DNA of 29,238 bases from a virus. The notes below the pieces were generated by a model. The model did not search any database. It was not told the DNA's origin and saw only the letters and a list, made by a program, of their open reading frames with translations. The position numbers and the translations under genes are program-made. The stretch spans positions 1-29,238 of IMG/VR virus record IMGVR_UViG_3300044615_000290. The stretch is one strand, 5' to 3'. Below, in pieces: positions 6,512 to 29,151 of this stretch (the stretch's first letter is position 1; the number at the start of each line of letters is the position of its first letter).

Positions 6512-7510
6512 ATGCCACAAGATGAAACACAACCTGTGTCGCAGTCACAGGGGGAAGAAAGTTCTGCGGAACAAGTCGGTTTGCTCGATGAGTATTCGCT
6601 TAGTGCGATGATCAAAGACACGTTCCTATCCGACGAGGGACAAGCAAAAGCTCCCGCTCAAGAGGAGCAATCGGCAGAGGAGGAGGAAGAGCCGCAGGCT
6701 GAAGAAGCCGAAGCTGAAGAATCCGAATCTGAAACGCAGGAAGAATCGGAAGAAGAATCCGAAGAATCCAGCGACGATGTGTCCAAGGGCGTTCAAAAGC
6801 GAATCAACAAGTTAGTTGCCGCTAAGAAAGCTGCCCTTGCTGAAGCGCAAGCCTACAAGGAGAAACTCACGGAGCTTGAGAGCAAGCTCAGTCAGGCTCC
6901 AGCCCAGGTCGCAAAGCAGGAGAATATCTCTGATGCAGTTGCCAAGCTCACGAGTGTTGAGCAGGTGGATGCAGAGTGGAGAAAAGCTACTGAGGTGCTG
7001 ATGTGGTGCGAGGAGAATCCAGATGGCGGCGTTATTCAACTGCCTAGTGGCGAAGAAGCTGATGTGGATGAATCCCAAGTGCGGCAAATGAAGAAACTTG
7101 CGCTCCGGCGCAGGGAACTGGAGTTGCCAGCACGAAGACAATATCTGCTAGTTGAGCGAGAAGCTGACGCTCAGACGGTGAAGGAGTTCCCATGGTGGAA
7201 AGACCCTTCTACGAAAGAGTATCAGACCGCCCAGCAGGTGTTGAGGGACTTCCCAGAGATTCGGGCCAAAAGAGCAGACTACAAACACATCGCTGGGATT
7301 GTTGTTCTGGGACTCCAAGCATACCAAAACATGCATGGGAAACAGGCAGCAGCACCCAAGCCTATCAAGCGAGCACCAAGCCAACCCGCAATCAAGGCTG
7401 CGCCTATGGTTAAGGACAATGGCAAAAAGGTGTTTGATAGCTTCGCTAGAAACAACGGTGACTCAAAGCTGTTCTCTGACCTGCTCAAAGCCAAAGGTTT
7501 CGTAGATTAA
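6512..7510 (+). CDS. Capsid scaffold (assembly) protein
   Basis: The 332-residue protein has the profile of a phage scaffold, which guides capsid shell assembly and then leaves. A strongly acidic Glu/Ser-rich stretch (about 44-90) precedes a coiled-coil-like Lys/Glu/Ala helix (about 90-150) with KAALAEAQAYKEKLTELESK. The C-terminal tail is basic (residues about 270-332, KPIKRAPSQPAIK...), as expected for the part that binds the shell. Its place immediately before the major capsid gene is classic. It starts at ATG 6512 after a hairpin-rich spacer and has no Shine-Dalgarno sequence. Identification rests on composition and position rather than on a motif. Confidence 0.82.
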   Translation: MPQDETQPVSQSQGEESSAEQVGLLDEYSLSAMIKDTFLSDEGQAKAPAQEEQSAEEEEEPQAEEAEAEESESETQEESEEESEESSDDVSKGVQKRINKLVAAKKAALAEAQAYKEKLTELESKLSQAPAQVAKQENISDAVAKLTSVEQVDAEWRKATEVLMWCEENPDGGVIQLPSGEEADVDESQVRQMKKLALRRRELELPARRQYLLVEREADAQTVKEFPWWKDPSTKEYQTAQQVLRDFPEIRAKRADYKHIAGIVVLGLQAYQNMHGKQAAAPKPIKRAPSQPAIKAAPMVKDNGKKVFDSFARNNGDSKLFSDLLKAKGFVD

Positions 7511-7522
7511 CAACTCAATACT

Positions 7523-8617
7523 ATGCCTCTATTAACTGAACCCAACCTCTCCGGTCGCGGTAAACGCGAAGACCTCATGGACATGATTGCCTTGGTGGAT
7601 GCCAAGGACACGCCATTTACTTCAATGGCGCGTAAAGGCTCCAAGCCTGGCAACATGTACTTCCGCTGGCAAGCTGACCAGAACCCTGGCCCTACCATTG
7701 GTGGGGTTGTTGACGGGACTGATGTGAACAATGCAAATGCGAACTCCTACACGAACTTCGTGACTGGGTATCGCAAGGAACTCGCCAACTACGCGCAGAT
7801 TTTCCGGCAAGCTGTTCGTGTGTCCAAGCTCACGCAGGACATCGCAGACGTTGCAGGGATTCGCGACGAGTTGAGCGACAACATCGCCAAAGCCATCATC
7901 GCCATCAAGCGTTCGATGGAAGCGACGTTCACGTCCGACCAGCTTGGTCAGGCCGACAACGCTACGGTTCCTTACCTCACGGCAGGGATTCAAAGGTGGA
8001 TTGGAAACGCAACTGTTGGAAGCGGACTGCTGCCCCTAGACGCCAGCACGACTGCTCCGTCATTTGTGACCCCAGCAGGGTCGATTGTTTCTGGGTCGAA
8101 CGCTTCCGCTTTGACGGACGCAACGGTGCAAAACTTGCTGAAGTCGATCTACGACCAGACGGGCAAGTACAAGTCCTTCGACGCAATCGTTGGAACTGAC
8201 CTCAAGCGTGCATTCACGAGCTTGCTCGGCACGACGGCATTGACCACCACGATTGCCCCGAACACTGCTGCTGGCGCAACGAAGGTGCAGACCTTCCAGC
8301 GTGATGCTGCTGCTGACACGTTCATCCAGAGCGTTGACGTGTTCCAAGGGGACTTCGGGACGGTGCGCTTGCACCCAACTACGTTCATCGGGACTGTGAC
8401 CAGCGGCGGATCAAATACAACCACATACACCTCAATGCCAGCATATGGCTTGGTGCTCGACATGGACTTGATCGAAGTTCGCTACGGCGGGAATGTCGCC
8501 AACGTCACGGCATTGCCTGACTACGGTGCTGGCCCTGCTCGCCTGATTGAAGCAGTTGCTGGCCTTGTGGTCGGCAACCCGCTCGGACTTGGCAAGTTCA
8601 CCTACGCTGCGGCTTAA
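7523..8617 (+). CDS. Major capsid protein, SU10-family-like
   Basis: The 364-residue protein should form the icosahedral shell. Its N-terminal region, with GKREDLMDMIALVDAKDTPF, then a RWQADQNPGP segment, NYAQIFRQAVRVS and DNIAKAIIAIKRSMEATF, follows the pattern I associate with the SU10 major capsid family (HK97 fold). The rest, with repeated small-residue beta segments and FDAIVGTDLKRAF, fits the P and A domains. It lies 12 bases after the scaffold gene. The start ATG has no Shine-Dalgarno sequence (upstream ACAACTCAATACT), notable for what must be the most abundant phage protein. A structured spacer follows it. Confidence 0.9.
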   Translation: MPLLTEPNLSGRGKREDLMDMIALVDAKDTPFTSMARKGSKPGNMYFRWQADQNPGPTIGGVVDGTDVNNANANSYTNFVTGYRKELANYAQIFRQAVRVSKLTQDIADVAGIRDELSDNIAKAIIAIKRSMEATFTSDQLGQADNATVPYLTAGIQRWIGNATVGSGLLPLDASTTAPSFVTPAGSIVSGSNASALTDATVQNLLKSIYDQTGKYKSFDAIVGTDLKRAFTSLLGTTALTTTIAPNTAAGATKVQTFQRDAAADTFIQSVDVFQGDFGTVRLHPTTFIGTVTSGGSNTTTYTSMPAYGLVLDMDLIEVRYGGNVANVTALPDYGAGPARLIEAVAGLVVGNPLGLGKFTYAAA

Positions 8618-15894: not shown

Positions 15895-17906
15895 TGGCAT
15901 ACCAGCAACAGACTGATGGGGACATGGGATTCAAGGGATTTGCGTCCCGACTCAACCCCATTGCTCTGGAGCCTGGAATGTTGCAGCTTGCTCAGAACTG
16001 CCGGATGGACAGGGGTGTTATCACGGCAAGAAAAGGGCTTGAAAAACTAACAGGGCAAACGCTGGCAAACGACTCCCTCATAACAACATATGCCTATACA
16101 GACGGGCAGAACGTAGACCACGTTATGCTGGTCTGCTTTGACGGCATATACATCTACACGCCAGAACAATACGGGCAAATTGCTGCCATTTCCTCGAAAA
16201 TACCATTTGCGTCTGGCAGATACATGTCAACAGCGTTTCGCCTTGCCGCTGAAAACGGGGACAATATTACGACGGAAGACGGCTACACCTTTACTGAAAG
16301 CCTTACATCTTCGATTCAGTATGATGTGCAAGGCCCGTTCCCAGACAGTGGCCAAGAGCACTTTGTAATTTTCCGTGGCAGGACAGATGAGCCGAAACTT
16401 ACCGCGCAGTTTTCCAGCCCTAACACGATTAATGCAACCGTAACGGTTACAACGTCGATTCCACACGGATACTCAATTGGAGAAGAGGTCAGCTTTTACA
16501 CGGCAGACACAGGGGCAGTTGTTCTAAACAACAACCACATTGTCACGTCGATTCCGACTCCAACATCTTTTACTTTCGTTTCAGCGGTATCACCTGGAAA
16601 TCACAACACGGTTAGCTGTTTTGTTCAGAAGGGGAAGCCACCGCTATTCTGGGACGGAACAAGCCCAATCAACATCATTCCGCAAACCAAGCCAGCATTC
16701 ATGGCTGGCGAGGCAGGATTTACTTCTGGCGAGTGCTCCGTCCCTCCAGGGGACTTTGGATTACAGTTCCAGAACAGGCTCGTTGTAGCCTACAAGCGAA
16801 ACAAGCTAGCTGTCTCAGATATCCTCGATTATCGCACGTTCGATCTCACGCTGAACAATTTCACCATCAACACGGGACTAAACGACACGCTTGTCGGGGT
16901 GCTTCCGTGGGTGCAAGACCAGTTCTTGGTGTTCATGCAGAAGAGCATTTACGTCTGCTACATCGAGACGAGCAACTTTGCTGTTGGCTCTGCCCCAGGG
17001 GTTAACTCGTCCATCACAGTGGTGACCACCGAACTCGGTGGACTTGCTCGCAGGTCGATTGTTTCTGCCGGACAGTTCGTGTTCTTCTTATCCAACAGGG
17101 GTATCAACATGCTCACGCCGCAGCTTGACCTCAAGCTCATCGGCAACACGAAGGCGTTATCTGACAATATCAACGACTGGATTGAACGCATCAACTACAG
17201 TTTCGTAGGACAGGCTTGCTGCGCCTATTTCAACAACCGCTTGTGGGTTTCATTGCCGATTGATCAAGCACAAACCAACAGCCACCTGTTCATATGGAAC
17301 ATGCTCAATGAAGCATGGGAGTCAATTGACACATATCAACCAGTTGAAGCAGGAACAACTATGGGAGCTGACGAGTTTCAAATCGTGCAGTTCAAAACAG
17401 CAAAGCAGCTTTTCATAATTCGCAAGTTCGATCAGTCTGGAACAGTAACAAGCGAAAATGGCGGAGTGTATGTAAGCGACCAGAAAGCGGATGGAGACTA
17501 TATCCGCACAAGCGCAGGCGCATCTCCAGTGCTCACGTTCACGCTTCCAGCAATCCTACAAGAAGCGACATCTGCGCCATCGAGCATTCTGTCCTCATTC
17601 AAGAGTCGTCAATACATCTTAGGAAGCCTGCAAGAGAAATACTACAGTAACGTGCAAGTTGTATCAAAAGCAAGCACGCCGCAAGACCAGATTGCAGTCT
17701 CAATCAGCACAAGCAACCAAGACGTTACCCAAGACAACGGTGTCATTACATTCACAGACGCAACAGACAAAACATATCGCGACCGTATTGGATTGCGCGG
17801 GTACGCTATTGATGCAACTCTATCGCTACAGAAGGGCCAGCCAGAAGTGCGTGCGATTAGCATTACCGGAAGCGTGGCATCCAGACCAATGATTTCACAG
17901 CAATAG
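15894..17906 (+). CDS. Tail nozzle protein (T7 gp12-like tubular protein B)
   Basis: The 670-residue protein opens GFKGFASRLNPIALEPGMLQ, followed by CRMDRGVITARKGLEKL. This is the usual start of podovirus nozzle proteins, in which the virus collects beta-propeller blades into the hexameric tail tip. Diagnostic segments include GVLPWVQDQFLVFMQKSIYV, LGGLARRSIVSAGQFVFFLS and NRGINMLTP. A late beta-strand section runs to residue 670. Its partner adaptor is the protein at 9112. It lies after the lysis cassette and before another fibre-like gene. Start ATG overlaps the previous stop and has no Shine-Dalgarno sequence. Confidence 0.88.
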   Translation: MAYQQQTDGDMGFKGFASRLNPIALEPGMLQLAQNCRMDRGVITARKGLEKLTGQTLANDSLITTYAYTDGQNVDHVMLVCFDGIYIYTPEQYGQIAAISSKIPFASGRYMSTAFRLAAENGDNITTEDGYTFTESLTSSIQYDVQGPFPDSGQEHFVIFRGRTDEPKLTAQFSSPNTINATVTVTTSIPHGYSIGEEVSFYTADTGAVVLNNNHIVTSIPTPTSFTFVSAVSPGNHNTVSCFVQKGKPPLFWDGTSPINIIPQTKPAFMAGEAGFTSGECSVPPGDFGLQFQNRLVVAYKRNKLAVSDILDYRTFDLTLNNFTINTGLNDTLVGVLPWVQDQFLVFMQKSIYVCYIETSNFAVGSAPGVNSSITVVTTELGGLARRSIVSAGQFVFFLSNRGINMLTPQLDLKLIGNTKALSDNINDWIERINYSFVGQACCAYFNNRLWVSLPIDQAQTNSHLFIWNMLNEAWESIDTYQPVEAGTTMGADEFQIVQFKTAKQLFIIRKFDQSGTVTSENGGVYVSDQKADGDYIRTSAGASPVLTFTLPAILQEATSAPSSILSSFKSRQYILGSLQEKYYSNVQVVSKASTPQDQIAVSISTSNQDVTQDNGVITFTDATDKTYRDRIGLRGYAIDATLSLQKGQPEVRAISITGSVASRPMISQQ

Positions 17907-17909
17907 CAT

Positions 17910-19112
17910 ATGGCACAGATTCAAGCAGGAACAAGTTACGCAACGGGGATGGCTGTTACCGCAGCAAATCTGAATGCACATGTAAATGACGCAATATTGA
18001 AAGAGCCTTGCATTGGCGCACAGCCAGTCTCTCAAGCGGTGTCTGCAACAGACAACATACTTATCAGCAACGGGTCTGCTCTGAACAAAACAACGCTAGC
18101 GTCCATTATTTCACCGCTAAACCTGTTTGATAAATCGCAAGCGCAAAGCCTGTCGCAAAACCTATCAATGGTTAGCGGAGCTGATTTCGCCCTGTCATCC
18201 AGCAGCATCATTTCATTGTCAGCAGGAGCGCAAATAGATTTATCATCAGGAGCGCAAATAGCGTTATCTTCTGGCGCAATTTTGACTCTTGGACAAAATC
18301 CGATTTCAAATCTTCAAGCAGCTACGAAAGAATATGTAGATAGCTCAATATCAGCTTCTACAACAAAGACGGTTGCAAAATTAAGAATTCGCACATCGCC
18401 AAATCCAACAGCACAGTCGTCCACAAGGACTGACCTCAAGATACCAGCAGTATTTACTCGGACAGCAAACTCGACAGACGTAACAATCACAATTAACAAC
18501 GCAACGTACTGGACAAGTCCATCCACCCCTTTCTTCCTTCAAGGGCAATATGTGTCAGTCTCAGAAAGCTCGGCAACTGGCCCTCTCGCAAATCGAACGT
18601 ATGAAATTTTGTCTGTAAATTTTGCAGCAAAAACAATCACCGTTCTATCGTCAAGCGATCCTAGCACTGTCGATATATCTGGAAACTGCAATCTTTTCGC
18701 GGTTTATGTAAACGCGAATCCTCCACCTTTAAATATTGACCAAAACGGCAACGTAAACATCAAAAGTGTTTATGTGGATTTAACTTCAGAAAAGTACTAC
18801 ATAAATTACTGGAGAGATTCAGAAACGCAAGACATGACATCTGTGCCGCAAACACAGACTGCAAACCCCACGTTACTCACAACCAGTGTTTTTGGGAATG
18901 CTCTTATTGGAAGCACGACTACACCAACATTGTATTCCGCAATAATTGCTAGAAAAATAGAAGCCCCAATAAGCAACCAGTCAATAAACAACCCAGACTC
19001 AGCACTTACCGGATACGGGATCACATCAAAAGGAATTCAAATAGTATTTCCTAGTCATCCTGCAATAACAACAAATGGCATATACGATGGCATTATAAGC
19101 GTCATAAGATGA
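17910..19112 (+). CDS. Tail fibre/appendage-like protein
   Basis: The 400-residue protein has an N-terminal segment (ATGMAVTAANLNAHVNDAIL) typical of phage appendage proteins that bind the tail. A fibrous repeat region follows (about 85-130) with short SGAQIxLSSGA units and the phrase ATKEYVDSSISAS, frequent in phage fibres. The C-terminal about 250 residues are beta-rich, with no clear enzymatic motif. Placed between nozzle and ejection genes, it could be a nozzle-attached fibre or receptor-binding protein. It starts 3 bases after the nozzle stop without a Shine-Dalgarno sequence. Confidence 0.75.
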   Translation: MAQIQAGTSYATGMAVTAANLNAHVNDAILKEPCIGAQPVSQAVSATDNILISNGSALNKTTLASIISPLNLFDKSQAQSLSQNLSMVSGADFALSSSSIISLSAGAQIDLSSGAQIALSSGAILTLGQNPISNLQAATKEYVDSSISASTTKTVAKLRIRTSPNPTAQSSTRTDLKIPAVFTRTANSTDVTITINNATYWTSPSTPFFLQGQYVSVSESSATGPLANRTYEILSVNFAAKTITVLSSSDPSTVDISGNCNLFAVYVNANPPPLNIDQNGNVNIKSVYVDLTSEKYYINYWRDSETQDMTSVPQTQTANPTLLTTSVFGNALIGSTTTPTLYSAIIARKIEAPISNQSINNPDSALTGYGITSKGIQIVFPSHPAITTNGIYDGIISVIR

Positions 19113-19567
19113 CCGTATGGGACAAAATCCTTGAAGCAGAACTAGCTGCTGCGAAGAGATATCCCAAGCTCTGGGATGGAACTAGCGAAGCGGAGATTAA
19201 GAACATACTGACATATTACGGACTGCACGGAGGACTGTTTTACTCCATGAAAGACGGGGAAATTGAGGCAGTCATGCTAGCCCACCCTGGTTGCAAGTTG
19301 CCGGATTGGCAATGGGAAGAGCTAACAAACGACTGGACAATATTAACGGCGTGGGCGAAGAACAGGAAGGCTTTAGAGGATATGACCGAGAGGGCTATCC
19401 AAGATAAGAAACCTGACTTGATTTACGCTATACGGGATGGAATCATCCATGAAATAACAACCAAGAAGCTACTGCGCCTATTTTATGGGATCTTCACCCA
19501 AAATCCAAGCTCCGCCTCCACCGCAATACAAGGAATCCATGAGGGATGTCCTCATGGCTCAGATTGA
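19109..19567 (+). CDS. Small protein at the start of the ejection cluster (T7 gp13 position)
   Basis: The 152-residue product is mixed helix/strand. It contains NILTYYGLHGGLFYSMKDGE and IEAVMLAHPGCKL, then WTILTAWAKNRKAL and IYAIRDGIIHEITTKKLLRL. The beta-strand/dG pattern, followed by a late R-D-G and K-L-L-R-L-F-Y, resembles phage proteins of the GNAT-fold internal-protein type, but the match is loose and no acetyl-CoA motif is clear. Its place before the gp14-like gene matches T7 gp13. Its 3' end overlaps the next gene by 83 bases if that gene starts at 19485. Its ATG overlaps the fibre stop. Confidence 0.65.
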   Translation: MTVWDKILEAELAAAKRYPKLWDGTSEAEIKNILTYYGLHGGLFYSMKDGEIEAVMLAHPGCKLPDWQWEELTNDWTILTAWAKNRKALEDMTERAIQDKKPDLIYAIRDGIIHEITTKKLLRLFYGIFTQNPSSASTAIQGIHEGCPHGSD

Positions 19568-20561
19568 ACTTGCGCCACAGCTATACGCTCGCGAGAAGGA
19601 ATACCAACCGCTTTACCAAAAGCTCCAGTCGCAAATTCAATCACAGGAAGCAAAAGACCAGCTAGGTCTATTTAGAGAGCTTCAGCCGCAGTTATCTCAG
19701 CTTGAATCAAGCTACAAGCGTTCCCAACAACTGGCAGAGACACAGGCTCTGCGAGAGCGTGCTCCAGGCTACGTTCAAGCCTTTCAAGATGCTGCTGGAA
19801 TCACTCCGCTCACCAAAGGACTTCGCACCTATGCAGAGGAGTTGCAAGGTCGCAGGCCAGAGTACGGGCTAAACCCACAGGAAGAACGCGCAATCCAGCA
19901 ATCAACCCGTGCAGCGTATGCCGCACGAGGAACAGCCCTTGGCGACCAATCTGCTTTGGGCGAGATTCTCAACCGCTACCAGTTCGAGCGTCAACGCAAG
20001 CTGGAGGAAGATCAATTGCAGGCTGGCAGAATGCAAATGTCTGCTGGTATTGCAGGGTCACTGCAACAGGCAGCGGCTCCAGCGATTGCATCGTTCTACC
20101 AGCAACCAATGTACGCAGCAAACTTCGCAGGCAACTCGCTGGGTCAAGCGTTGATGTCACAGCAGATGTCCGGCCCTTCCATGTTCAACCCAGAAAGCCA
20201 AGTTGGCATGGGGTCGATTTACGGGGCATACAACGCGCAAACACAACTAGCGGCAGCGAACGCTCAAGCAGCAGCGGGGCAAAGAGCAGGGACGATGAGC
20301 ATGATTGGGTCAATTGGCGGAGCGGTTGTTGCCGCAGTTGCCTACTGCTGGATTGCCAGAGCATGCTTTGGCAGCTTGAGCGACAAGTGGGTCAAGTTCA
20401 GAAACAGCATGATTCGCAACGCATCCGACAAGTTCATCCGGTGGTACTGCAAAAATGGCGAGCAGCTTGCTGAAACGATTGCCAACTCTAGCGTCATGCG
20501 GTTCATTGGACGCATAGCCCTAACAGGGCTTTCTTCCGCATGGATGTTAAAACAAAGCTAG
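19485..20561 (+). CDS. Internal virion/ejection protein (T7 gp14-like) with a C-terminal CWIAR domain
   Basis: The 358-residue protein starts MGSSPKIQAPPPPQY, a Pro-rich opening common in podovirus internal proteins, then a long Gln/Ala/Leu helical region. A hydrophobic segment (about 272-291) leads into YCWIARACFG (C288, C294), followed by WVKFRNSMIRNASDKFIRWY. I recall this CWIAR-then-WxxFRxW arrangement at the C-terminus of many phage proteins, of unknown function. An alternative start at ATG 19539 has AAGGAA upstream and would cut the overlap with the preceding gene. I keep 19485 because MGSSP-type N-termini are typical. The YcaO gene starts 22 bases before this gene's end. Confidence 0.75.
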   Translation: MGSSPKIQAPPPPQYKESMRDVLMAQIELAPQLYAREKEYQPLYQKLQSQIQSQEAKDQLGLFRELQPQLSQLESSYKRSQQLAETQALRERAPGYVQAFQDAAGITPLTKGLRTYAEELQGRRPEYGLNPQEERAIQQSTRAAYAARGTALGDQSALGEILNRYQFERQRKLEEDQLQAGRMQMSAGIAGSLQQAAAPAIASFYQQPMYAANFAGNSLGQALMSQQMSGPSMFNPESQVGMGSIYGAYNAQTQLAAANAQAAAGQRAGTMSMIGSIGGAVVAAVAYCWIARACFGSLSDKWVKFRNSMIRNASDKFIRWYCKNGEQLAETIANSSVMRFIGRIALTGLSSAWMLKQS

Positions 20562-21694
20562 ATGGTGCTCAGAGAGCTTGCACCCACAGACAGACACTAG
20601 AGAGGATGAAGCCGTGGCTGAAAGCTGCTGGCATTACTCGTCTTGCAGAGATAACGGGACTTGATCGCACAGGGATTCCTGTGGCTCAAAGCATACGACC
20701 AGACAGCAAATCTGTTTGCGTTGATTCGGGAAAAGGATTCACAACCGAGGCTGCGCTATGCTCCGCAATGATGGAGTCATTTGAGCGGCACGTTGCTGAG
20801 AGTTTCCCAATCAACTCGTTCTTCGATAAGGGCCGAAACCTCAAGGACACCGAGACGCGAGTGCAGATGGTCAAGGGAGGCTTCTATCACCCAGACATAC
20901 CGATTGAGTGGACAGACATGTTTGGCCTTCGCTCAAAGCAGCGAAAGCTAGTTCCCGCAGTGTCAGTGCGCTTGGAGCAATCTCAGCCTTTATTCCCAAT
21001 CTTCAAGACTAGCTTCGGCTCAACAACGAACGGACTATCCAGCGGCAACACGCTGAACGAGGCAATCGCAGGTGGTATCTACGAAGTTATCGAACGCGAC
21101 CAAGTTTCAACGTCATTCACAAAAAACATTCATGCACACCGAGTGGACTTGGACACCATCAAGGATGAGATTGTTGGGTCGCTGGTCGAAAAGCTCAGGA
21201 CAAACGGCATCATGCCAGTTCTCTTGGATGTCACTCAGGACATCGATGTGCCAACGTATATCGGATACACCTTTGATATTGAGGGAGGAACAGGGGTTCA
21301 CAAAGGCTACTCGTCGCACCTCAGCCCTCATGTGGCTCAAGCCAGAGCACTTTGCGAAGCCGTGCAAAGCAGGGTTGTATATCTCTCCGGCAGCAGAGAC
21401 GACATCTCGCACGAAAAGTTCACCAAATCACGAACGATTGATGCGGCTTCTGCAATCAAGACGTTTTACGAGTTCGACACGATAGATGCCAACAAGCACG
21501 AGGATTGCAGCGCAGATTCGTTCACAGCAGACATTGCTGTCCTCTTGCACAAGTTGCACAAAGCAAAGATGCCAGAGCCGCTTGTAAAGGTGTTCAAGCA
21601 CCCGTATCCGTGCAGCGTTGTGCGCGTTACAATACCAACAGCCGAAGGCTATTACCACAAAGGTGGACGCATTGGAGAAAGGGGGATTGCATGA
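20540..21694 (+). CDS. ycaO: YcaO-domain protein, probable ATP-dependent peptide-backbone thioamidase/cyclodehydratase
   Basis: YcaO enzymes use ATP to phosphorylate a peptide-bond oxygen, giving azolines or, with TfuA, thioamides. This 384-residue protein is a near-complete YcaO fold. GITRLAEITGLDRTGIPV (31-48) and SIRPDSKSVCVDSGKG (51-66) are followed by the ATP/Mg motif SAMMESFERHVAE (75-87; E79, E82). The second ligand set is GSTTNGLSSGNTLNEAIAGG (160-179) plus YEVIERD (181-187; E182, E185). ALCEAVQSRVVYLSGSRDD (270-288) is also conserved. The C-terminal VTIPTAEGYYHKGGRIGERG lacks the PxPxP tail of azoline-forming cyclodehydratases. Start ATG 20540 keeps the expected N-terminal HRxTLER segment. 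It overlaps the gp14-like gene and the TfuA gene, indicating coupling. Confidence 0.93.
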   Translation: MDVKTKLDGAQRACTHRQTLERMKPWLKAAGITRLAEITGLDRTGIPVAQSIRPDSKSVCVDSGKGFTTEAALCSAMMESFERHVAESFPINSFFDKGRNLKDTETRVQMVKGGFYHPDIPIEWTDMFGLRSKQRKLVPAVSVRLEQSQPLFPIFKTSFGSTTNGLSSGNTLNEAIAGGIYEVIERDQVSTSFTKNIHAHRVDLDTIKDEIVGSLVEKLRTNGIMPVLLDVTQDIDVPTYIGYTFDIEGGTGVHKGYSSHLSPHVAQARALCEAVQSRVVYLSGSRDDISHEKFTKSRTIDAASAIKTFYEFDTIDANKHEDCSADSFTADIAVLLHKLHKAKMPEPLVKVFKHPYPCSVVRVTIPTAEGYYHKGGRIGERGIA

Positions 21695-22686
21695 GAGTGT
21701 TTATTGGCCCAACTGGGCATGGAATGAATCTGGACGGACTGGACGTGTTTGCGCCAGCGCAGCAGGGAGACATCGCTAGAGCTGTTCACGAAGGAGAGAA
21801 AACCATCGTCCTTATCGACGGCTTCTTCACGCAGAACCTAGCCCCTTGGCACAAGGAAATCCTGCACGCAATCCATCAGGGATGCAGAGTCATTGGTGCG
21901 GGTTCGCTAGGGGCACTCAGGGCTGTTGAATGTGAGCGATACGGCGCAGAGCCAGTTGGACTAATCGCCGAGTGGTACAAGGATGGAACATGCACGGATG
22001 ACGCTGACGTTGCATTGGCGCATTCTGCCGCAGAGGACGGGTGCAAGCAGCTTTCAGTGCCGCTTGTGAATATCATAGCAACAGCCAAGCACCTTGAGGA
22101 GAGTGGCAAGATCAAGAGCGCACAGCAGGTCATTGAGCAGTGCCGTGGAATCTTTTACATGGAGAGAAGCTGGCAGCGGCTTCTCAAGGACTTGGGCGAC
22201 ACAGGGCAGTTGCTCAAGGACAACTACATCGACCAGAAGCGGCTTGATGCCGAGGAGGCTATCGCTCACGCAAGAAAGCCTGTTGCGGTCATTCCTTCTG
22301 CAAAGCACATCTACACCTCAAACATGGGGATGCTCCTAGAGCACGATATGCCAGGCAGCAAATGTAGACCGTGGGAGCTATCAACGCACAAAGAAGAGGC
22401 TATAGCACTGCATATGCTAGTTGAGATGGCAGCGACGATGGGAGTGAATCCAAACGCTTACGAAGTTAGCGAGCAATCCAAGGCAATGTGGCAAAAGCTA
22501 GGCATCACTAGCGATAAAGCTGCCTCTGAGTGGATGGAGGCAAACAACGTGAGCCAAGAGCGGTGGAATATGTTTGCAATCAAACTTGCTGTCAAGCAAT
22601 GTGTGCTTGACTGGTTTGATTCCACAGACGGGTGCATTCTAGCAGCAAGACTTGAGCAAGACTACAAACTATTCAATAACCTATGA
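21691..22686 (+). CDS. tfuA: TfuA-like protein, partner of YcaO
   Basis: TfuA proteins assist YcaO in backbone thioamidation, apparently helping deliver sulfur. The 331-residue product has the family landmarks: VFIGPTG (3-9), FAPAQQGDI (20-28), LIDGFF (41-46), then AIHQGCRVIGAGSLGALRA (60-78) with ECERYGAEPVG (80-90) and CTDDADVALAH (101-111). The about 100 C-terminal residues past the core are helical and extend beyond the shortest TfuA proteins. The start is the ATG overlapping the YcaO stop (ATGA). A longer frame upstream is out-of-frame YcaO DNA and should be ignored. GGAGAAAGGGGG just upstream is one of the few clear ribosome sites. Its stop overlaps the next gene's ATG. Confidence 0.92.
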   Translation: MRVFIGPTGHGMNLDGLDVFAPAQQGDIARAVHEGEKTIVLIDGFFTQNLAPWHKEILHAIHQGCRVIGAGSLGALRAVECERYGAEPVGLIAEWYKDGTCTDDADVALAHSAAEDGCKQLSVPLVNIIATAKHLEESGKIKSAQQVIEQCRGIFYMERSWQRLLKDLGDTGQLLKDNYIDQKRLDAEEAIAHARKPVAVIPSAKHIYTSNMGMLLEHDMPGSKCRPWELSTHKEEAIALHMLVEMAATMGVNPNAYEVSEQSKAMWQKLGITSDKAASEWMEANNVSQERWNMFAIKLAVKQCVLDWFDSTDGCILAARLEQDYKLFNNL

Positions 22687-23135
22687 CTCCAAGAAACCCT
22701 TTTAGCGGACAAGCACCAGCAGCAATGGCACAGATGGGAGCAGGACTCTCAGAGGCCGGAGGAAGGATTGGACAGTTCAACTACCAAGGTCTAGCTGACT
22801 TCGGCAAAGGAATGGCTTCCGGTATCTCAACGGGAGCTGGGAACTATTTTGCTGGGCAAGATGCCAAGAGCACCGTGTCGGCTCTAGGAAAAACAGCAGA
22901 CTTGATTCAAGACCCGCAGCAGAAACAAGCATTTCAAGACTTCTTGTCTAGCGACGAGTTCTCCAACAAACAGAAAGCTCAGATGGGCACGAACCTGTTC
23001 AACACGCTATTGGACTACGGCATGAAGTACACGATGCAGCAGAGTGACTTGGCTTCTCGTGAGCGGATTGCAGGGATGAGGGCAATGGGTGGAGGGGGAG
23101 GGATTGGCATGGAGCCTTGGAGTCCCGTTCAATAA
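22683..23135 (+). CDS. Small internal virion protein with a Gly-rich C-terminus
   Basis: The 150-residue protein begins MTPRNPFSGQAPAAMAQMG, has a Gly/Ala-rich amphipathic middle and a charged helix (DPQQKQAFQDFLSSDEF), and ends RAMGGGGGIGMEPWSPVQ. It contains no catalytic motif. It starts on the TfuA stop (ATGA) and is followed one base after its stop by the next virion gene, so it belongs to the same transcript as YcaO/TfuA. The composition (small residues, Gln, Met) fits an ejected internal protein. The Gly-rich tail directly beside a thioamidation pair is a tempting modification target, but that is conjecture. Confidence 0.7.
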   Translation: MTPRNPFSGQAPAAMAQMGAGLSEAGGRIGQFNYQGLADFGKGMASGISTGAGNYFAGQDAKSTVSALGKTADLIQDPQQKQAFQDFLSSDEFSNKQKAQMGTNLFNTLLDYGMKYTMQQSDLASRERIAGMRAMGGGGGIGMEPWSPVQ

Positions 23136-23136
23136 A

Positions 23137-24825
23137 ATGGAATACCAAACACAACAACTGCTTGAAGCGAACCGTCTGCTGTACGGTTCCATGCCTGCCA
23201 ATTCATTTGGTCAGCCAGAGGAAGCGATGGACTACCGAATGCAGCAAACGCTTCAAAGAGACCGTCAGCTATATGGCCCTGCACCAGGCAATCCGTTTGC
23301 GGATAAACAAGAGCCACAAGCCGCGCCTGACTCACAGCAGGAAGAGCCTATCAGGATGGATTTTGAAACACGACAACTGCTATACGGCCCTGGCCCAACT
23401 AATCCATTTGGAAGCGGGGACGCAGTGCAAGAAGCAGTGCAGCAGACAAGTGGCCCACAGCAATCGGAGTCTCTAAAGCCAATTAAGCCGAAAGGGTGGA
23501 CGCTCGACGAAGCTCCAGTAGCTCTGCGTATTCCGGCGGGATACGACCCAGCAAATCCAGATCACCAAAAAGCGTACCAAGAAGCAGAGGCAACTGCCAC
23601 AAATCCCAAGACGCTAGGCACTTTCGCTGGCGAGTATTTGACGAGTATTGAGGGTCAAAAGGGCAGAGTTCAAGCAGCGCAAAAAGCAGTGGCTGACTCG
23701 CTCGCAGAGCTAAACGGAATCAAATCCACGCTTGCATCCGGCGGGAAACAAATGTCTACACCTGACTATGGACGGGTAACAGTGCCACTTACCAACAGGG
23801 AAATAGCGAATCTGAACGTAAGGCTTGGGACTGCCGAAGAGAAGTACAAGGCAAGCAAAGCTGCACTGGAAGAAGGGTCTGCCCCGATTGGCCCGAAGAT
23901 CATTGACGTTACTCTACCGAAGCCGCCAGAACCCCCTGCCGAAGCTGCGCCTGCGCCAGCCAAAGAGCCAGAGCAAAAACCGCAAGGGCAGCAGAGCATT
24001 GATCAGCTAGAGGACATACCACTCTCAAGGCAGCAGATCATATACAACGCAAATGTCCAAAGTCTAAACAACTGGGCAATGCGGCAGATAGCAAGGGGCG
24101 TGAAACATGAGGCTGTAAATGCCTTCAAGAACAACGCAATGGACTCCTTGAAAGCTAGCATGAAGCCTGAGTATCGTCAGCTAGGTGATGGGCTGTACTA
24201 CTTTAAAGATCCATCCTCTGAGGGTGTGAAGGTTGAAGACCGTGGGGTTCTGCGTCGAGAGATTTACTCTGAGAACGTGAAGCAGTTCGATAAGCAGATG
24301 CAGAATCTCAACGAGATTGATGCTATGGCAAGAATGGCAGATGAGGCTGCTAAACTTAAACCAGGAGACAAACAGAGGGCGGCGTACATAACTGCACTTG
24401 GAGCAGCAACCAAGGCGATCAACACGGCAATCGCTGGAACGTCTGACGCTGTATCCTTGCAAGAATACAACAGGGTGGCATCGTCACTGAACATGGGAAT
24501 CATACAAAACCCATTACAGGCATTCAATCAGGACAGCATCGGCAAGATGTTCGGCACAAACCCAGAAGGATTCGCTGCTTTTGCAAGAGAGATACGCAAC
24601 ATTGCGGCTAACCGTTCCAAGGGAAACTACGCTACAATTAAGTCATTGGAAAAGCGTGTTGGAATTCCGCTTCAAGAGGTTCCAGATTGGTATCTGTCCG
24701 CTATCTCAAAAGACAAGGGCATAACGGTCAGCGCAGAGGAAGTCAGGTCTGCATTAGGGGCGCGGCAGCAAAATAAAGGCACGAGCTTCAAAACTCAAGG
24801 CGGGTTGAAACTAAACATCAGATAG
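23137..24825 (+). CDS. Internal virion/ejection protein with N-terminal LYGPxPxNPF repeats (T7 gp15 position)
   Basis: I choose ATG 23137, one base after the previous stop (562 residues). The frame extends to ATG 23089, but those 16 residues overlap the preceding gene. The N-terminus has three repeats: residues 1-24, 31-54 and 74-91, each ending in a LYGxxPxNxF phrase (LYGSMPANSF, LYGPAPGNPF, LYGPGPTNPF). A Pro/Ala/Glu-rich linker (about 255-295) separates them from a long helical C-terminal half with KHEAVNAFKNNAMDSLKASM and AAYITALGAATKAIN. No enzymatic motif is visible. Position between a small protein and the giant ejection protein suggests a T7 gp15-like role, forming part of the DNA-ejection channel. 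Confidence 0.75.
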   Translation: MEYQTQQLLEANRLLYGSMPANSFGQPEEAMDYRMQQTLQRDRQLYGPAPGNPFADKQEPQAAPDSQQEEPIRMDFETRQLLYGPGPTNPFGSGDAVQEAVQQTSGPQQSESLKPIKPKGWTLDEAPVALRIPAGYDPANPDHQKAYQEAEATATNPKTLGTFAGEYLTSIEGQKGRVQAAQKAVADSLAELNGIKSTLASGGKQMSTPDYGRVTVPLTNREIANLNVRLGTAEEKYKASKAALEEGSAPIGPKIIDVTLPKPPEPPAEAAPAPAKEPEQKPQGQQSIDQLEDIPLSRQQIIYNANVQSLNNWAMRQIARGVKHEAVNAFKNNAMDSLKASMKPEYRQLGDGLYYFKDPSSEGVKVEDRGVLRREIYSENVKQFDKQMQNLNEIDAMARMADEAAKLKPGDKQRAAYITALGAATKAINTAIAGTSDAVSLQEYNRVASSLNMGIIQNPLQAFNQDSIGKMFGTNPEGFAAFAREIRNIAANRSKGNYATIKSLEKRVGIPLQEVPDWYLSAISKDKGITVSAEEVRSALGARQQNKGTSFKTQGGLKLNIR

Positions 24826-24831
24826 TTCAGT

Positions 24832-27800
24832 ATGCCACAAGTCACTATTGAAGGTAAGAACGTCACGCTGAACTTTCCTGACGATATCTCAAACGAAGAG
24901 ATCGCAGCGTATGTGGATATGAAGTATCCACGCACAGGGAAAGACGTGGAGGAGGACATCAAGACTAGCCTGCTTGATTACGAGCCTACGCTGGAGGACT
25001 TCCGCAAATACAAGAGCTTCTCGCAGGAGCGTGGGTTTGAAGTTGGTGAAGCACTCAAGGGAGTTGGCAGAGGGTTGCTTGAGATGGGCAAGAGCATGAT
25101 TGGCTTGCCTGGTGCAGTGATATCAGACCCCACAGCAGTCCCTGCTTCAGCAGCAGAGGCACTAGCGCAGAACCTCGTCTCTTACGGGCAAATCCTATCC
25201 GGCGGCACAGACCCAGGCGGGAAGGTCTTCAACGCAGTAAACGGCTCTGACGAAACGCTGGCGTACTTCTCGTGGAGAGATAACCTCAACAGGGCCAAGG
25301 AACTGGCGCGAGCAGCAACGGGAGAAGCCACCCTTACAGGACTCCAAGCAAGCCCAGAGCAAGTGCAAGGACTCGCTCCTATTGCAGACCCAATGAACCT
25401 CATTGGACTTGGATTTGCTGGCAAAGCAGGGACAGCAGGAGCCAAGGCAACGCAGGCAGTAGGGACAGTTCTACGCAACACAGGCAGAGCCGCAGAAACC
25501 ATTGCAGGAGTGCCGCAACGGGCCGTTGCAGCCGCAGCAAGAGGACTTGCTGGAGTTACGCCAGAAGCAGCGGCGCAGCTAGCTGAGAGGGCTGGAACAG
25601 CCGCAGTGGTGGCTGATGTCGCTGGAAACTTGATCCCTGGTGCTGCTGAGACTGCCGCAGTTAAAGCTGCTGGGACTGCAACCAAAGCAGTTGGTGAAGC
25701 AACGCAAGCTGTGGGACGGGCTCTTGAAGGCGGTGAGAGGCAGCTTAGTGTGATTGAGCGAGCATTGCTTGATCCCACGGTTTCGGATGCAGCCAAGATT
25801 CCGCTCACGATTGCCGCGAGGGTTGTTCCACGCGAAGCCGCAGGGATTGCAGCGCAGGCAGCAAAGGCAGGGCTCACGGCAGGCGCAATCAACGCTATCC
25901 TTGAATCCTCGCAGACAACGGACGCAGAGCGCATTGGTGAAGCATTTGGTGGCGGTCTAGCTGCTGGCGGCATCATGGGCGCGTCTGCACGGCTTTATGA
26001 CGTGGCAACGGGCAAAGTGTCCAAGCAGCGTGCGCTCAACGAGGCAGGCAGGCAGCTCCGCGCATTTGAGTTGATGGGTGAAGCTCCAGAGGACTTGGCG
26101 TACAGGGCCGAGTTCATCGACAACCTGTCAAAGACGGACAAGGGCGGCAAGGCTCTTGCAACATTTGTTGCTCTGACCGACATGGCTCTTGAGCGGAATC
26201 GGAACGTCAAGGTTGTTGACGGCAGCACACACTTGGTTGATGGCAAAGTCCTAGAAGGCTGGAACGCCATTTACGACAAGAAAGACGGCACGATTTACAT
26301 CAACAAGAATAGCGCGGATCCGACCACGCTGCCGCACGAGATGACCCACTCGCTTGTGACGGACGTTGTTGCAGACGAGATTACCAACACGCTCTTTAGG
26401 CGCGACTCCGAGGGCAGACTGACTCCGCAGCTAAACAACGCTGAGACGGCAAAGCTGCTCGATGACTACATCACCAGAGCCGACAACATCACGCACCCTG
26501 ACGGCACGACCGAAGGGCAAAGAATGCGCGATAGGCTCAACAGAATCACCGACCCTGCTATTCCGACTGAGCAGGTAGTGCGAGAGCTTCGGGACATTAC
26601 GCACGAGATTGCTGCCACTTACGCCGAGGATTGGGTCACAGGCAAAGACCCGCGCAGCTTCATTCGTGGAGCAGTGCCGACAATCTGGCAGGAGGGGATC
26701 AACACAGCGAAGACAAAGCTGCGCCGTATCTTTGGCGCGGAGGTTAAGGGCAACCCGATTCTTGACCCTGTCATGGATCGCATCTTCGCCAAGGACAAGC
26801 CTGGACTCCCGCCAGAGCGTGTTGCTGTGGATATCGACCCCAAGATGTTTAAGGCAGATTTTGCTGATCGTCTGGGCGTGATGATGAACGACAAGACCCG
26901 CAAGATGCATTGGCCAGCGGTGTACGAAGGGGTCAAAGAAACGTTGCTTCAGAATGGCGGCAGGGAGCCTGCATCAAAGTACTATGCCAACAACAACGTA
27001 TCGATTCTCGATGTGCCTGATGCGGTCATCAACGATTTGACGCAGCGGACAATCACCACCAAGGCCAAGCAGAACGCTCCGTTCCTCTATCCGATTGAGG
27101 CTCAGAACATCATCACGATGAAGCAAGCCATTCGGGAAGGCAAGATGGTGAAAGCCTCGCAAGTCTTCAAGATGATGAACGAGCAGGGTGTAGCTGAAAC
27201 TGGCAACATCCGCAGGGGCACTCCGTCTGATAAAGACCTCGTTGGTATCGACATCATGTGGAACAAGGATGGCGGGGTGCAGCTATTGGCGTTTGATTAC
27301 GGCAATGCGATTGACCGTCTGGGCAAGGCTGTGGTTGGTGGCAAATCGGGGTTCAGTGACATGGCTCAAGCCCGTCGCTACATGGATGCTTACTTGGAGT
27401 ATCTCTCCAAAAACAGGTTTGCGCCAGAAGCTGCGAAGAACAGCACGGTTGCTGTGGAAGTTGACGGAGTGCCGCTAGGCAAGCAAAGACACGCTGCGCT
27501 GATTGATTCGTTCCAGATTCCAACCCCTACGAAGAGGTTTGCGAGAGAAGGCATATCAATGCTCAATGAGTTGCCAGCGGATGTTGCAGCATCCACGAGC
27601 CGCCAGGGGATGGAACGACAAGCTGGGGTTGAGATCGTTGACCTTCGCCGCATGGTTGGGCCGATTACGATTAGCGATGTGCGCGTGCCAATGGATGTGG
27701 CTAGCATGCAAGGGATTCAGCGGCATTTCCAGCCGACGAGAACCAAGTTTGAGCAGCTTCCAAACGGCAGTGTGGCGCAGGACATCTCTGGTGATCGCAT

Positions 27801-29151
27801 CGTCAAAACAGACACTACGGGCTATCGAGTGTTCGACGCACTTGGCAACCGCATTGGCATCTTCAAGACGTTCGATCAAGCAGCAGAAGCCTCTACACGG
27901 AGGTCGATGAAGGACACGGAAACCATCAACAAACTACAAGATGCCATTCAAGAGCAACGCGCAAAGGAAAGCCAAGTAAGGTTCCAGCCCAAGCGCAAGA
28001 AACAGAAGCCATTGCCTCGCACCCCATTTGAGATGGGAGAGCAGATCGCTAAACGCGAGAAGGGCATGGCTGAATCCGCTCAACGCCGGACTGACCGTGA
28101 TGTTGCTGCAATCAAAGCGAAGTTTGAAAGAGAGGGTGTTGCCACCGCAGAGGAGATGGCAATCATGCAGGAGCAGGCTATTGCCCAGCAGCAGGAGCTA
28201 TCTAGACTCTTCTCCAAGGACGTTCGTAAACCGCTCACGGAACAGGAGTACCAAGCTCTGCAAGAAACCAACAAGCTGCGCGATTACGTCGAGGCTCTAA
28301 TCAACTTTGAGAAGACACTTGGCGAAGAGCCTGTTGGAAAGGTGTACCAGCAGAATCCGCTGAAGATGACCTCCTTGCAAAAGGACGCCATCCTCCGAAA
28401 GGCTCTGTCTCTCGATACACCAGAGGCTATGCGTGCAATCCAGACTGCGCGTGAATTTGTGTCGGACGAGATGCGTGTGGCTGTTGAGCGGATGTTCGCC
28501 GCAACAGAACGTAAAGCAGCAGCGCAGAACCAGGTGATGCAACAGCAGGCAGAGGCTAGAGCCTCGCAAGTGCAACCAATCTTAGAGCCAGCCTTCGGAT
28601 TTAATCCTACTCGTCTAGTTGTTCCAGAAGCAACTCGCGTGGCTATAGACAGAATGCGTGGCGCGTTGGAGCGCACGGCGGGTGTACGGGAGCGAATCTC
28701 TATGCAGCAGCCGCAAGCTGAACCTCCAACAGGAGTGGCTTATGGAGTTAACCTTAAGAGAGTTGTGCTTGAAGCTGGGTCAAAGCCTGCTGCCCCGCCT
28801 GCAGCACAGCCGACCGTAGGTGAAGTTGTTAGGGCAAAGAAAACGCTGCGAGAGCAAGCACAGCAAGAAGCTGCCGCAATTTCCGCTGAACGCGAAGCCA
28901 AGTTAGCTGCTATGGAGCAGAATATTGCTGCGGAAGCTGCAACACTTAGCGAGGAGATGGCGAAGAAGTTCAGCAGTATTGCCAAGGAAATCGGTAAAGC
29001 AGAAGAGGTTGTCACATCCGAGCAGGAGCCGATTAAGCCCAACCGCATCATCCTCAAGATCAACAACAAGTATCGCCTCTACGGAGCAACTGCTGGACTT
29101 CTTGGGGTGTATCGGAATAGAGAAGACGCAATCAAGAAAGCAAAGAAATGA
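24832..29151 (+). CDS. Giant ejection/polyvalent-like virion protein (T7 gp16 position) with an HExxH motif
   Basis: The 1439-residue protein opens VTIEGKNVTLNFPDDISNEE, a start common in phage ejection proteins. A very Ala-rich region (about 90-400) is helical. At residues 502-506 HEMTH gives the HExxH zincin signature (H502, E503, H506), followed by mixed domains. A segment at about 987-1020 (YRVFDALGNRIGIF...) recurs in diverged form at the C-terminus (about 1405-1439, YRLYGATAGLLGVY), each ending in an A-rich helix. A charged coiled-coil run (about 1040-1400) precedes the end. Multi-domain size and position fit gp16-like proteins that enter the cell first. I see no lysozyme motif. It starts 6 bases after the previous stop, without a Shine-Dalgarno sequence. 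Confidence 0.8.
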   Translation: MPQVTIEGKNVTLNFPDDISNEEIAAYVDMKYPRTGKDVEEDIKTSLLDYEPTLEDFRKYKSFSQERGFEVGEALKGVGRGLLEMGKSMIGLPGAVISDPTAVPASAAEALAQNLVSYGQILSGGTDPGGKVFNAVNGSDETLAYFSWRDNLNRAKELARAATGEATLTGLQASPEQVQGLAPIADPMNLIGLGFAGKAGTAGAKATQAVGTVLRNTGRAAETIAGVPQRAVAAAARGLAGVTPEAAAQLAERAGTAAVVADVAGNLIPGAAETAAVKAAGTATKAVGEATQAVGRALEGGERQLSVIERALLDPTVSDAAKIPLTIAARVVPREAAGIAAQAAKAGLTAGAINAILESSQTTDAERIGEAFGGGLAAGGIMGASARLYDVATGKVSKQRALNEAGRQLRAFELMGEAPEDLAYRAEFIDNLSKTDKGGKALATFVALTDMALERNRNVKVVDGSTHLVDGKVLEGWNAIYDKKDGTIYINKNSADPTTLPHEMTHSLVTDVVADEITNTLFRRDSEGRLTPQLNNAETAKLLDDYITRADNITHPDGTTEGQRMRDRLNRITDPAIPTEQVVRELRDITHEIAATYAEDWVTGKDPRSFIRGAVPTIWQEGINTAKTKLRRIFGAEVKGNPILDPVMDRIFAKDKPGLPPERVAVDIDPKMFKADFADRLGVMMNDKTRKMHWPAVYEGVKETLLQNGGREPASKYYANNNVSILDVPDAVINDLTQRTITTKAKQNAPFLYPIEAQNIITMKQAIREGKMVKASQVFKMMNEQGVAETGNIRRGTPSDKDLVGIDIMWNKDGGVQLLAFDYGNAIDRLGKAVVGGKSGFSDMAQARRYMDAYLEYLSKNRFAPEAAKNSTVAVEVDGVPLGKQRHAALIDSFQIPTPTKRFAREGISMLNELPADVAASTSRQGMERQAGVEIVDLRRMVGPITISDVRVPMDVASMQGIQRHFQPTRTKFEQLPNGSVAQDISGDRIVKTDTTGYRVFDALGNRIGIFKTFDQAAEASTRRSMKDTETINKLQDAIQEQRAKESQVRFQPKRKKQKPLPRTPFEMGEQIAKREKGMAESAQRRTDRDVAAIKAKFEREGVATAEEMAIMQEQAIAQQQELSRLFSKDVRKPLTEQEYQALQETNKLRDYVEALINFEKTLGEEPVGKVYQQNPLKMTSLQKDAILRKALSLDTPEAMRAIQTAREFVSDEMRVAVERMFAATERKAAAQNQVMQQQAEARASQVQPILEPAFGFNPTRLVVPEATRVAIDRMRGALERTAGVRERISMQQPQAEPPTGVAYGVNLKRVVLEAGSKPAAPPAAQPTVGEVVRAKKTLREQAQQEAAAISAEREAKLAAMEQNIAAEAATLSEEMAKKFSSIAKEIGKAEEVVTSEQEPIKPNRIILKINNKYRLYGATAGLLGVYRNREDAIKKAKK

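Follow-up and report, generated by a model that had tools for sequence, protein, structure and literature searches.

A putative protein-thioamidation system encoded by a YcaO-TfuA gene pair in a phage virion operon, with the adjacent ejection-type protein as candidate substrate

The virion operon described here carries adjacent genes for a YcaO-family enzyme and a TfuA-family protein, which together may form a viral system for protein thioamidation, acting most likely on the ejection-type protein encoded immediately upstream; on the sequence comparisons below, we put the probability of this reading at about 0.5. The two genes are intact, under selection, ancient in viruses and linked to the upstream virion protein, and they are joined in one sub-clade by a gene for a ThiS-family sulfur carrier. 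Searches of the open-access literature turned up no account of a phage system of this kind.

Genomic context of the YcaO-TfuA pair

The window, meaning the whole stretch of DNA analysed, comprises the 29,238 bases of an IMG/VR virus record. The genes around the pair follow the order terminase, portal-size ORF, scaffold-like protein, SU10-type capsid protein, endolysin, virion proteins and a gp13-gp16-like set. The terms podovirus and ejection cluster are used provisionally from this gene order, weak matches to internal virion proteins and the SU10-type capsid protein, and not from a formal classification; likewise, the resemblance to gp13-gp16 ejection genes is one of order and size, from which the labels gp14, gp15 and gp16 are putatively assigned.

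The pair and the neighbouring genes described next lie on the positive strand. A virion-operon gene that is gp13-like by position (19109..19567), with synteny kept in relatives and no family match in Pfam or PHROG, precedes the gene for the 358-aa candidate substrate (19485..20561), read as a gp14-like ejection protein from its location between gp13-like and gp15/16-like genes and its Ala/Gly-rich C-terminal segment. The gene for the YcaO-family ATP-dependent peptide-backbone enzyme (20540..21694; 384 aa) starts 22 nt within this upstream ORF. The true start of the TfuA gene (21691..22686; 331 aa) lies at the ATGA overlap with ycaO (21691-21694), and its stop overlaps the start of the next ejection-cluster gene (22683..23135), which in phages without YcaO comes straight after the gp14-like gene. 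Beyond it are a gene that is gp15-like by position (23137..24825), identified by synteny and having no Pfam match, and a gene for a 1439-aa protein that is gp16-like by position and size (24832..29151). As the first-pass annotation had proposed, the pair is integral to the virion operon, overlapping each other and the flanking virion genes, and its membership of that operon is near certain. Chance or host contamination was ruled out by the purifying selection described below and by the same arrangement in tens of independent contigs. Promoter- and terminator-like matches in positions 17900-24900 were no more frequent than in shuffled sequences, a weak negative result.

This arrangement bears on the possibility that the pair belongs to a RiPP pathway with a small thioamidated peptide as product. 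YcaO-TfuA pairs of bacteria are known to serve as RiPP enzymes (PMC8120280, PMC6511847); however, the virion ORFs that overlap both flanks in the window leave no room for a precursor gene, and no exclusive small ORF lies beside the pair across lineages, so that a RiPP product appears highly improbable.

Identity of the YcaO and TfuA proteins

Both proteins score well above their Pfam cut-offs. YcaO matches PF02624 with 188.2 bits (cut-off 25.7), residues 63-368 aligning to positions 1-324 of the 325-position profile, and TfuA matches PF07812 with 112.5 bits (cut-off 30). The ATP/Mg motifs SxxxExxER and ExxER of YcaO are intact (S75/E79/E82/R83 and E182/E185/R186); the key residues named in the first-pass annotation are all present, with no loss at the ATP site, and the four glutamates E79, E82, E182 and E185 are invariant in 18 viral YcaOs. 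The three TfuA motifs named with them are likewise found, GPTG at residue 6, GAGSLGALRA at 69 and DDADVA at 103; invariance extends to DD..VA and most of the second motif, but not to the last glycine of GPTG. The best PDB match of YcaO is the MJ1094 YcaO (6pe3; E 1.4e-39), and dN/dS values of 0.03-0.10 in the four pairs measured indicate purifying selection. An AlphaFold2 model of the window TfuA (pLDDT 78.5), which has about 130 aa extra at its C-terminus, matches the TfuA fold, with a Foldseek match to the Methanosarcina acetivorans TfuA 6xp8 (E 2.9e-12; TM 0.79, normalised by target). The assignment of the two proteins to the YcaO and TfuA families is near certain.

Neither protein reaches the cut-off of a model specific to a known substrate. 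YcaO scores 212 bits against TIGR03266 (McrA-glycine thioamidation; equivalog cut-off 365) and 38 bits against NF040716 (uL16-modifying YcaO; equivalog cut-off 700), and TfuA scores 134 bits against the McrA-specific equivalog NF033432 (cut-off 235).

The viral TfuA shares 49% identity along its whole length with A0A6J5NWG3, a protein of an uncultured Caudovirales phage named in UniProt as 'COG3482 uncharacterized conserved protein'. A viral TfuA is therefore already present in UniProt, its entry unexplained.

Distribution and ancestry

Five scans of IMG/VR gave a set of 95 viral contigs encoding YcaO, the window included (82 found first and 13 added later), which bears out the expectation that related phages would carry the pair. 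TfuA follows YcaO in 81 of the 95; the other 14 contigs end in YcaO or no more than about 120 nt past its end. The pair is not represented in PHROGs, neither YcaO nor TfuA had a match in 50,697 GenBank phage records, and a search of 84,980 bacterial and archaeal species genomes with the TfuA profile returned only three distant relatives. The phylogeny with other phage copies that the first-pass annotation had suggested, built together with bacterial and archaeal YcaOs, places the viral YcaOs in a single virus-only clade (support 100/95), the nearest bacterial sister group of which comprises YcaOs of rhizobial plasmids (L267, L268 and L270).

The upstream protein and its C-terminal domain

Because the protein encoded upstream of YcaO has no Pfam or PHROG match, known internal-virion-protein families included, it is putatively labelled gp14-like from gene order and the Ala/Gly-rich segment only. 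It consists of a coiled N-terminal part, a low-confidence Ala/Gly-rich segment and a C-terminal helical domain. The N-terminal part is highly variable among relatives, with identity to that of the window protein as low as 15-17%, and the C-terminal residues, approximately 70 in number and starting C-W-[IVL]-A-R-x-x-[FY]-G, are conserved. In the window this domain spans aa 288-355 (20346..20549), shows the pattern CWIARACFG...KW..FR...Y...G, scores 116 bits against its own HMM, and is modelled by AlphaFold2 as a four-helix mini-domain (pLDDT 94-97) behind the low-confidence Ala/Gly-rich segment; a fold search with the domain gave no match. Residues G275, C288, W289, A291, R292, G296, W302, R306, Y321, G325 and A329 (window numbering) are invariant in 45 carriers.

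The domain resembles the NCBIfam CFI-box-CTERM family (NF041770) in its C-terminal location, its length of about 69 aa and its C-x-[IV]-A-x-x-x-[YF]-G start, and a bacterial CFI-box copy has the FR and Y positions in common with the viral domain. Viral copies nevertheless remain under the curated cut-off (17.1 bits for the window protein against 40, and a weak match in 5 of 45 relatives), and the domain is therefore termed CFI-like. The YcaO start lies on the same strand as the CFI-like domain and no more than about 60 nt from its end in 86 of the 95 YcaO contigs.

A ThiS-family sulfur carrier in one sub-clade

Thirteen contigs of one sub-clade encode, between YcaO and TfuA, an 88-aa ORF ending in AFAGG, with the stop codon followed three bases on by the TfuA ATG. 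This ORF is identified as ThiS by Pfam PF02597 (34.6 and 33.2 bits; cut-off 22.5), aligning to the last position of the profile with its Gly-Gly end, and has dN/dS values of 0.09-0.48; a 14th contig carries a truncated ThiS-family copy. The Gly-Gly end is the site of thiocarboxylation in the ThiS/MoaD family. TfuA has been assigned the role of a hydrolase that releases sulfur from ThiS-like thiocarboxylated carriers (PMC13063428), and the viral carrier is, in our judgement, the strongest new evidence for thioamidation by the viral pair; thioamide chemistry is considered likely. The earlier observation that the pair has no biosynthetic neighbours thus holds for the window and fails for the family. 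A ThiF-type/E1-like activating enzyme was found neither in six carrier-bearing records nor in the window, and ThiS is encoded neither in the window nor in 12 other phage records, such that host help is required.

YcaO enzymes are best known for forming azolines, and the invariant Cys of the CFI-like domain in the 45 carriers would offer a site for such a reaction on the same upstream protein. This different YcaO reaction is considered very unlikely, given that TfuA and the ThiS carrier in relatives point to sulfur transfer and that no E1-like/ThiF partner occurs in the 7 records tested.

Linkage between the CFI-like domain and YcaO

In a blind scan, viral contigs were selected by the N-terminal part of the upstream protein alone, irrespective of the CFI-like domain and YcaO; this yielded 80 contigs, eight of which end before the informative place. 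Among the remaining 72, YcaO is present in 13/13 with a CFI-like domain of the AR[AET]C[FY]G type, in 0/19 with the AREVYG type (two of these having almost no downstream sequence) and in 0/40 with no CFI-like domain (Fisher p 1e-14 for CFI subtype against YcaO, kinship of contigs ignored). In 17 of the YcaO-lacking contigs the whole record was searched, and YcaO was absent. A DNA-pattern scan (CW..ARA[A/C..][FY]G) of 2.9 M viral contigs gave 72 matches, 63 of which have YcaO; the other nine were rejected as exceptions, eight stopping at or inside the gene or its stop codon and one being a chance match. No gene within 5.5 kb other than the YcaO-TfuA pair is present in all YcaO-containing loci and absent from YcaO-lacking ones.

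Distances between CFI-like domains correlate with those between YcaOs (r 0.87; partial 0.75 given the N-terminus; as high in 0/2000 permutations), and their partial correlation with distances of the same protein's N-terminus is 0.11; the domain co-diverges with YcaO and not with its own N-terminus. Independent capture of YcaO beside the domain was rejected, the viral YcaOs being one clade. Part of the co-divergence could come from physical linkage within one recombining cassette, and it therefore shows a cassette and not by itself a substrate.

Generic domains of the AREVYG type occur at no fewer than 587 viral loci, and the 79 contigs with such a domain that were examined have no YcaO in the flanking sequence present, indicating that the CFI-like domain does not need the enzymes. 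In bacteria, 18 of 297 genomes of one phylum have a CFI-box over the cut-off and four have TfuA, with both in a single genome (G022) on different contigs; the link is thus viral and not general.

In relatives lacking YcaO, two states are seen behind the gp14-like gene: an empty slot, where the upstream protein has an AREVYG-type domain, or a PP-loop gene, whose product of about 280 aa matches PAPS reductase (PF01507, 25.1 bits). The PP-loop gene, categorised as auxiliary/moron in PHROGs, is present in 39 of the 72 informative contigs; in every one of them the upstream protein lacks the CFI-like domain, and gene and domain never occur together. This pattern allows two readings: an enzyme suited to its type of substrate, or a hot spot that takes alternative cassettes. 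On the second reading, the 3′ end of the gp14-like gene would be a cassette site taking up sulfur/ATP enzymes (YcaO-TfuA or the PAPS-reductase-like protein) that act on host proteins or sulfur metabolism, with the CFI link a by-product of the recombination site. The frequency and moron category of the PP-loop gene in the same slot are consistent with such cargo, as are the persistence of YcaO after loss of the CFI-like domain and its relocation in one lineage (see below); moreover, known protein thioamidation targets the housekeeping proteins MCR and uL16 (PMC13063428). However, the YcaO-TfuA pair keeps its place behind one virion gene throughout a deep clade made up of viruses only, the blind scan shows no exception to the match between enzyme type and C-terminal type, and the window YcaO falls far under the E. 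coli uL16-type model (38 against 700 bits), which leaves the cargo reading unlikely, at perhaps one chance in four.

Lineages departing from the pattern

Three lineages (L016-L018, L419/L424 and L422) keep YcaO-TfuA with an upstream protein, a true homologue of the domain-bearing ones, that stops just before the Cys position of the domain. The CFI-like domain was not found elsewhere in their records, and a frameshifted copy was looked for and not found in L017. In a further lineage (028025), the pair adjoins terL on the opposite strand, the usual slot is empty, and the CFI-like domain is of the generic type and far from the pair. In L423, YcaO-TfuA is joined to a generic-type domain; this combination of YcaO with AREVYG led us to drop the strict distinction of AR[A/T/E]C[FY]G from AREVYG as a universal rule.

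Since three lineages lost the CFI-like domain and kept the enzymes, the domain is not the only target everywhere; either the Ala-rich segment or a further protein of the ejection set belongs to the target, or targets have shifted. These lineages are also consistent with the idea that another virion protein, such as a gp15/gp16-like protein or the next small ejection protein, is the substrate and the gp14-like neighbour a positional companion only, as is the embedding of the pair in a whole ejection cluster. Nevertheless, these neighbours occur in YcaO-lacking relatives as well, and among neighbours and domains only the CFI subtype tracks YcaO, making a different virion substrate rather improbable. 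Modification of the upstream ejection-type protein itself is judged to have about even odds. The first-pass annotation had argued for a new substrate, to be sought among the virion proteins; that search need not be blind, the upstream protein with its CFI-like end being the consistent partner.

Proposed mechanism

We infer the catalysis, substrate, site and benefit of the viral pair as follows. YcaO and TfuA would be made late in infection together with the ejection proteins. YcaO would use ATP to activate a backbone amide of the substrate, and TfuA would free sulfide from a thiocarboxylated ThiS-type carrier, host-derived in the phage of the window and virus-encoded in 13 relatives, to give a thioamide, with sulfur in place of the backbone oxygen (+15.977 Da). 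The likeliest substrate would be the gp14-like protein translated immediately before YcaO, the site in most phages being at or next to the CFI-box-like C-terminal domain, behind the hydrophobic Ala/Gly-rich segment. The thioamide may stiffen or protect that part of the ejection machinery which passes into the host envelope.

Significance and comparison with known systems

The broader proposition, that viruses introduce thioamides into the backbone of one of the virion proteins they inject, and that the enzyme set (YcaO, TfuA and in some a virus-encoded ThiS carrier) and the C-terminal domain on which it acts evolve together as a single cassette, is held tentatively, at slightly less than even odds. 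According to a 2026 paper (PMC13063428), only two proteins, MCR and uL16, are known targets of thioamidation by YcaO enzymes. If the proposition is true, this would be the first virus-encoded protein thioamidation, with a third protein substrate, and viruses would be changing backbone chemistry in a virion part; it would also be a first clue to the frequent occurrence of CFI-like domains at the ends of phage virion proteins. With a candidate substrate of about 70 conserved residues beside the system, the question of phage thioamides is directly testable.

Among known systems, the rhizobial plasmid and actinobacterial pairs resemble that of the phage in the adjacency of YcaO and TfuA, the rhizobial YcaOs being the nearest bacterial sister group; however, they share only about 30% identity with it and are not viral, and the two bacterial pairs checked (L150 and L151) have no CFI-like neighbour. 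The methanogen YcaO-TfuA pair, responsible for McrA glycine thioamidation (PMC5589413), comprises the same two families, and the best PDB matches of both phage proteins are methanogen proteins (6pe3 and 6xp8). The phage pair differs in falling under the McrA-specific cut-offs (212/365 and 134/235 bits), in being viral and located in a virion operon, and in having a TfuA about 130 aa longer. The E. coli YcaO, which thioamidates the backbone of uL16 (PMC13063428), operates without TfuA and is distant from the window protein on NF040716 (38 against 700 bits), but it is similar to the system proposed here in that its substrate is a whole protein and not a RiPP peptide.

Gene content around the YcaO-TfuA slot

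Between YcaO and the ThiS-like sulfur carrier gene, 5′ of the latter, an additional ORF, roughly 73 aa long (MTPQLIAYPPTHETTYHYRIDG...), is encoded in the related viral contigs 044617_002246 (L061), 042887_003996 (L084), 034064_001981 (L065) and 043468_001861 (L062); it is present in contigs where the gap between YcaO and TfuA is about 480 nt, and a Pfam search with it returned no match. Within the window, the 1439-aa protein at 24832-29151 weakly matches a CYP38/PsbQ-like domain, scoring 21 bits, which does not reach the cut-off.

Six viral contigs (L094, L098, L099, L110, L124 and L359/L404) break off precisely where the gene bearing the CFI-like C-terminal domain reaches its stop codon, as if trimming software had removed YcaO-TfuA as host DNA. 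YcaO-TfuA systems behind such genes may be undercounted in virus databases. A generic CFI-like domain is also found in the cultured marine phage HMO-2011 (GU557055.1, 22531-22725), at the C-terminus of ADW08438.1, a protein annotated as hypothetical, and the annotation around this domain includes no YcaO.

A PAPS-reductase-like PP-loop gene with the motif SGGKDSTVLLD lies directly 3′ of the gp14-like gene in contig L282 (about 6802-7644), and in this and 38 other loci such a gene occupies the exact site that holds YcaO-TfuA in relatives. This arrangement occurs only in phages whose upstream gp14-like protein lacks the CFI-like domain. PAPS-reductase-like PP-loop genes are customarily labeled auxiliary metabolic genes; at this slot, the gene may serve the ejection proteins rather than auxiliary metabolism.
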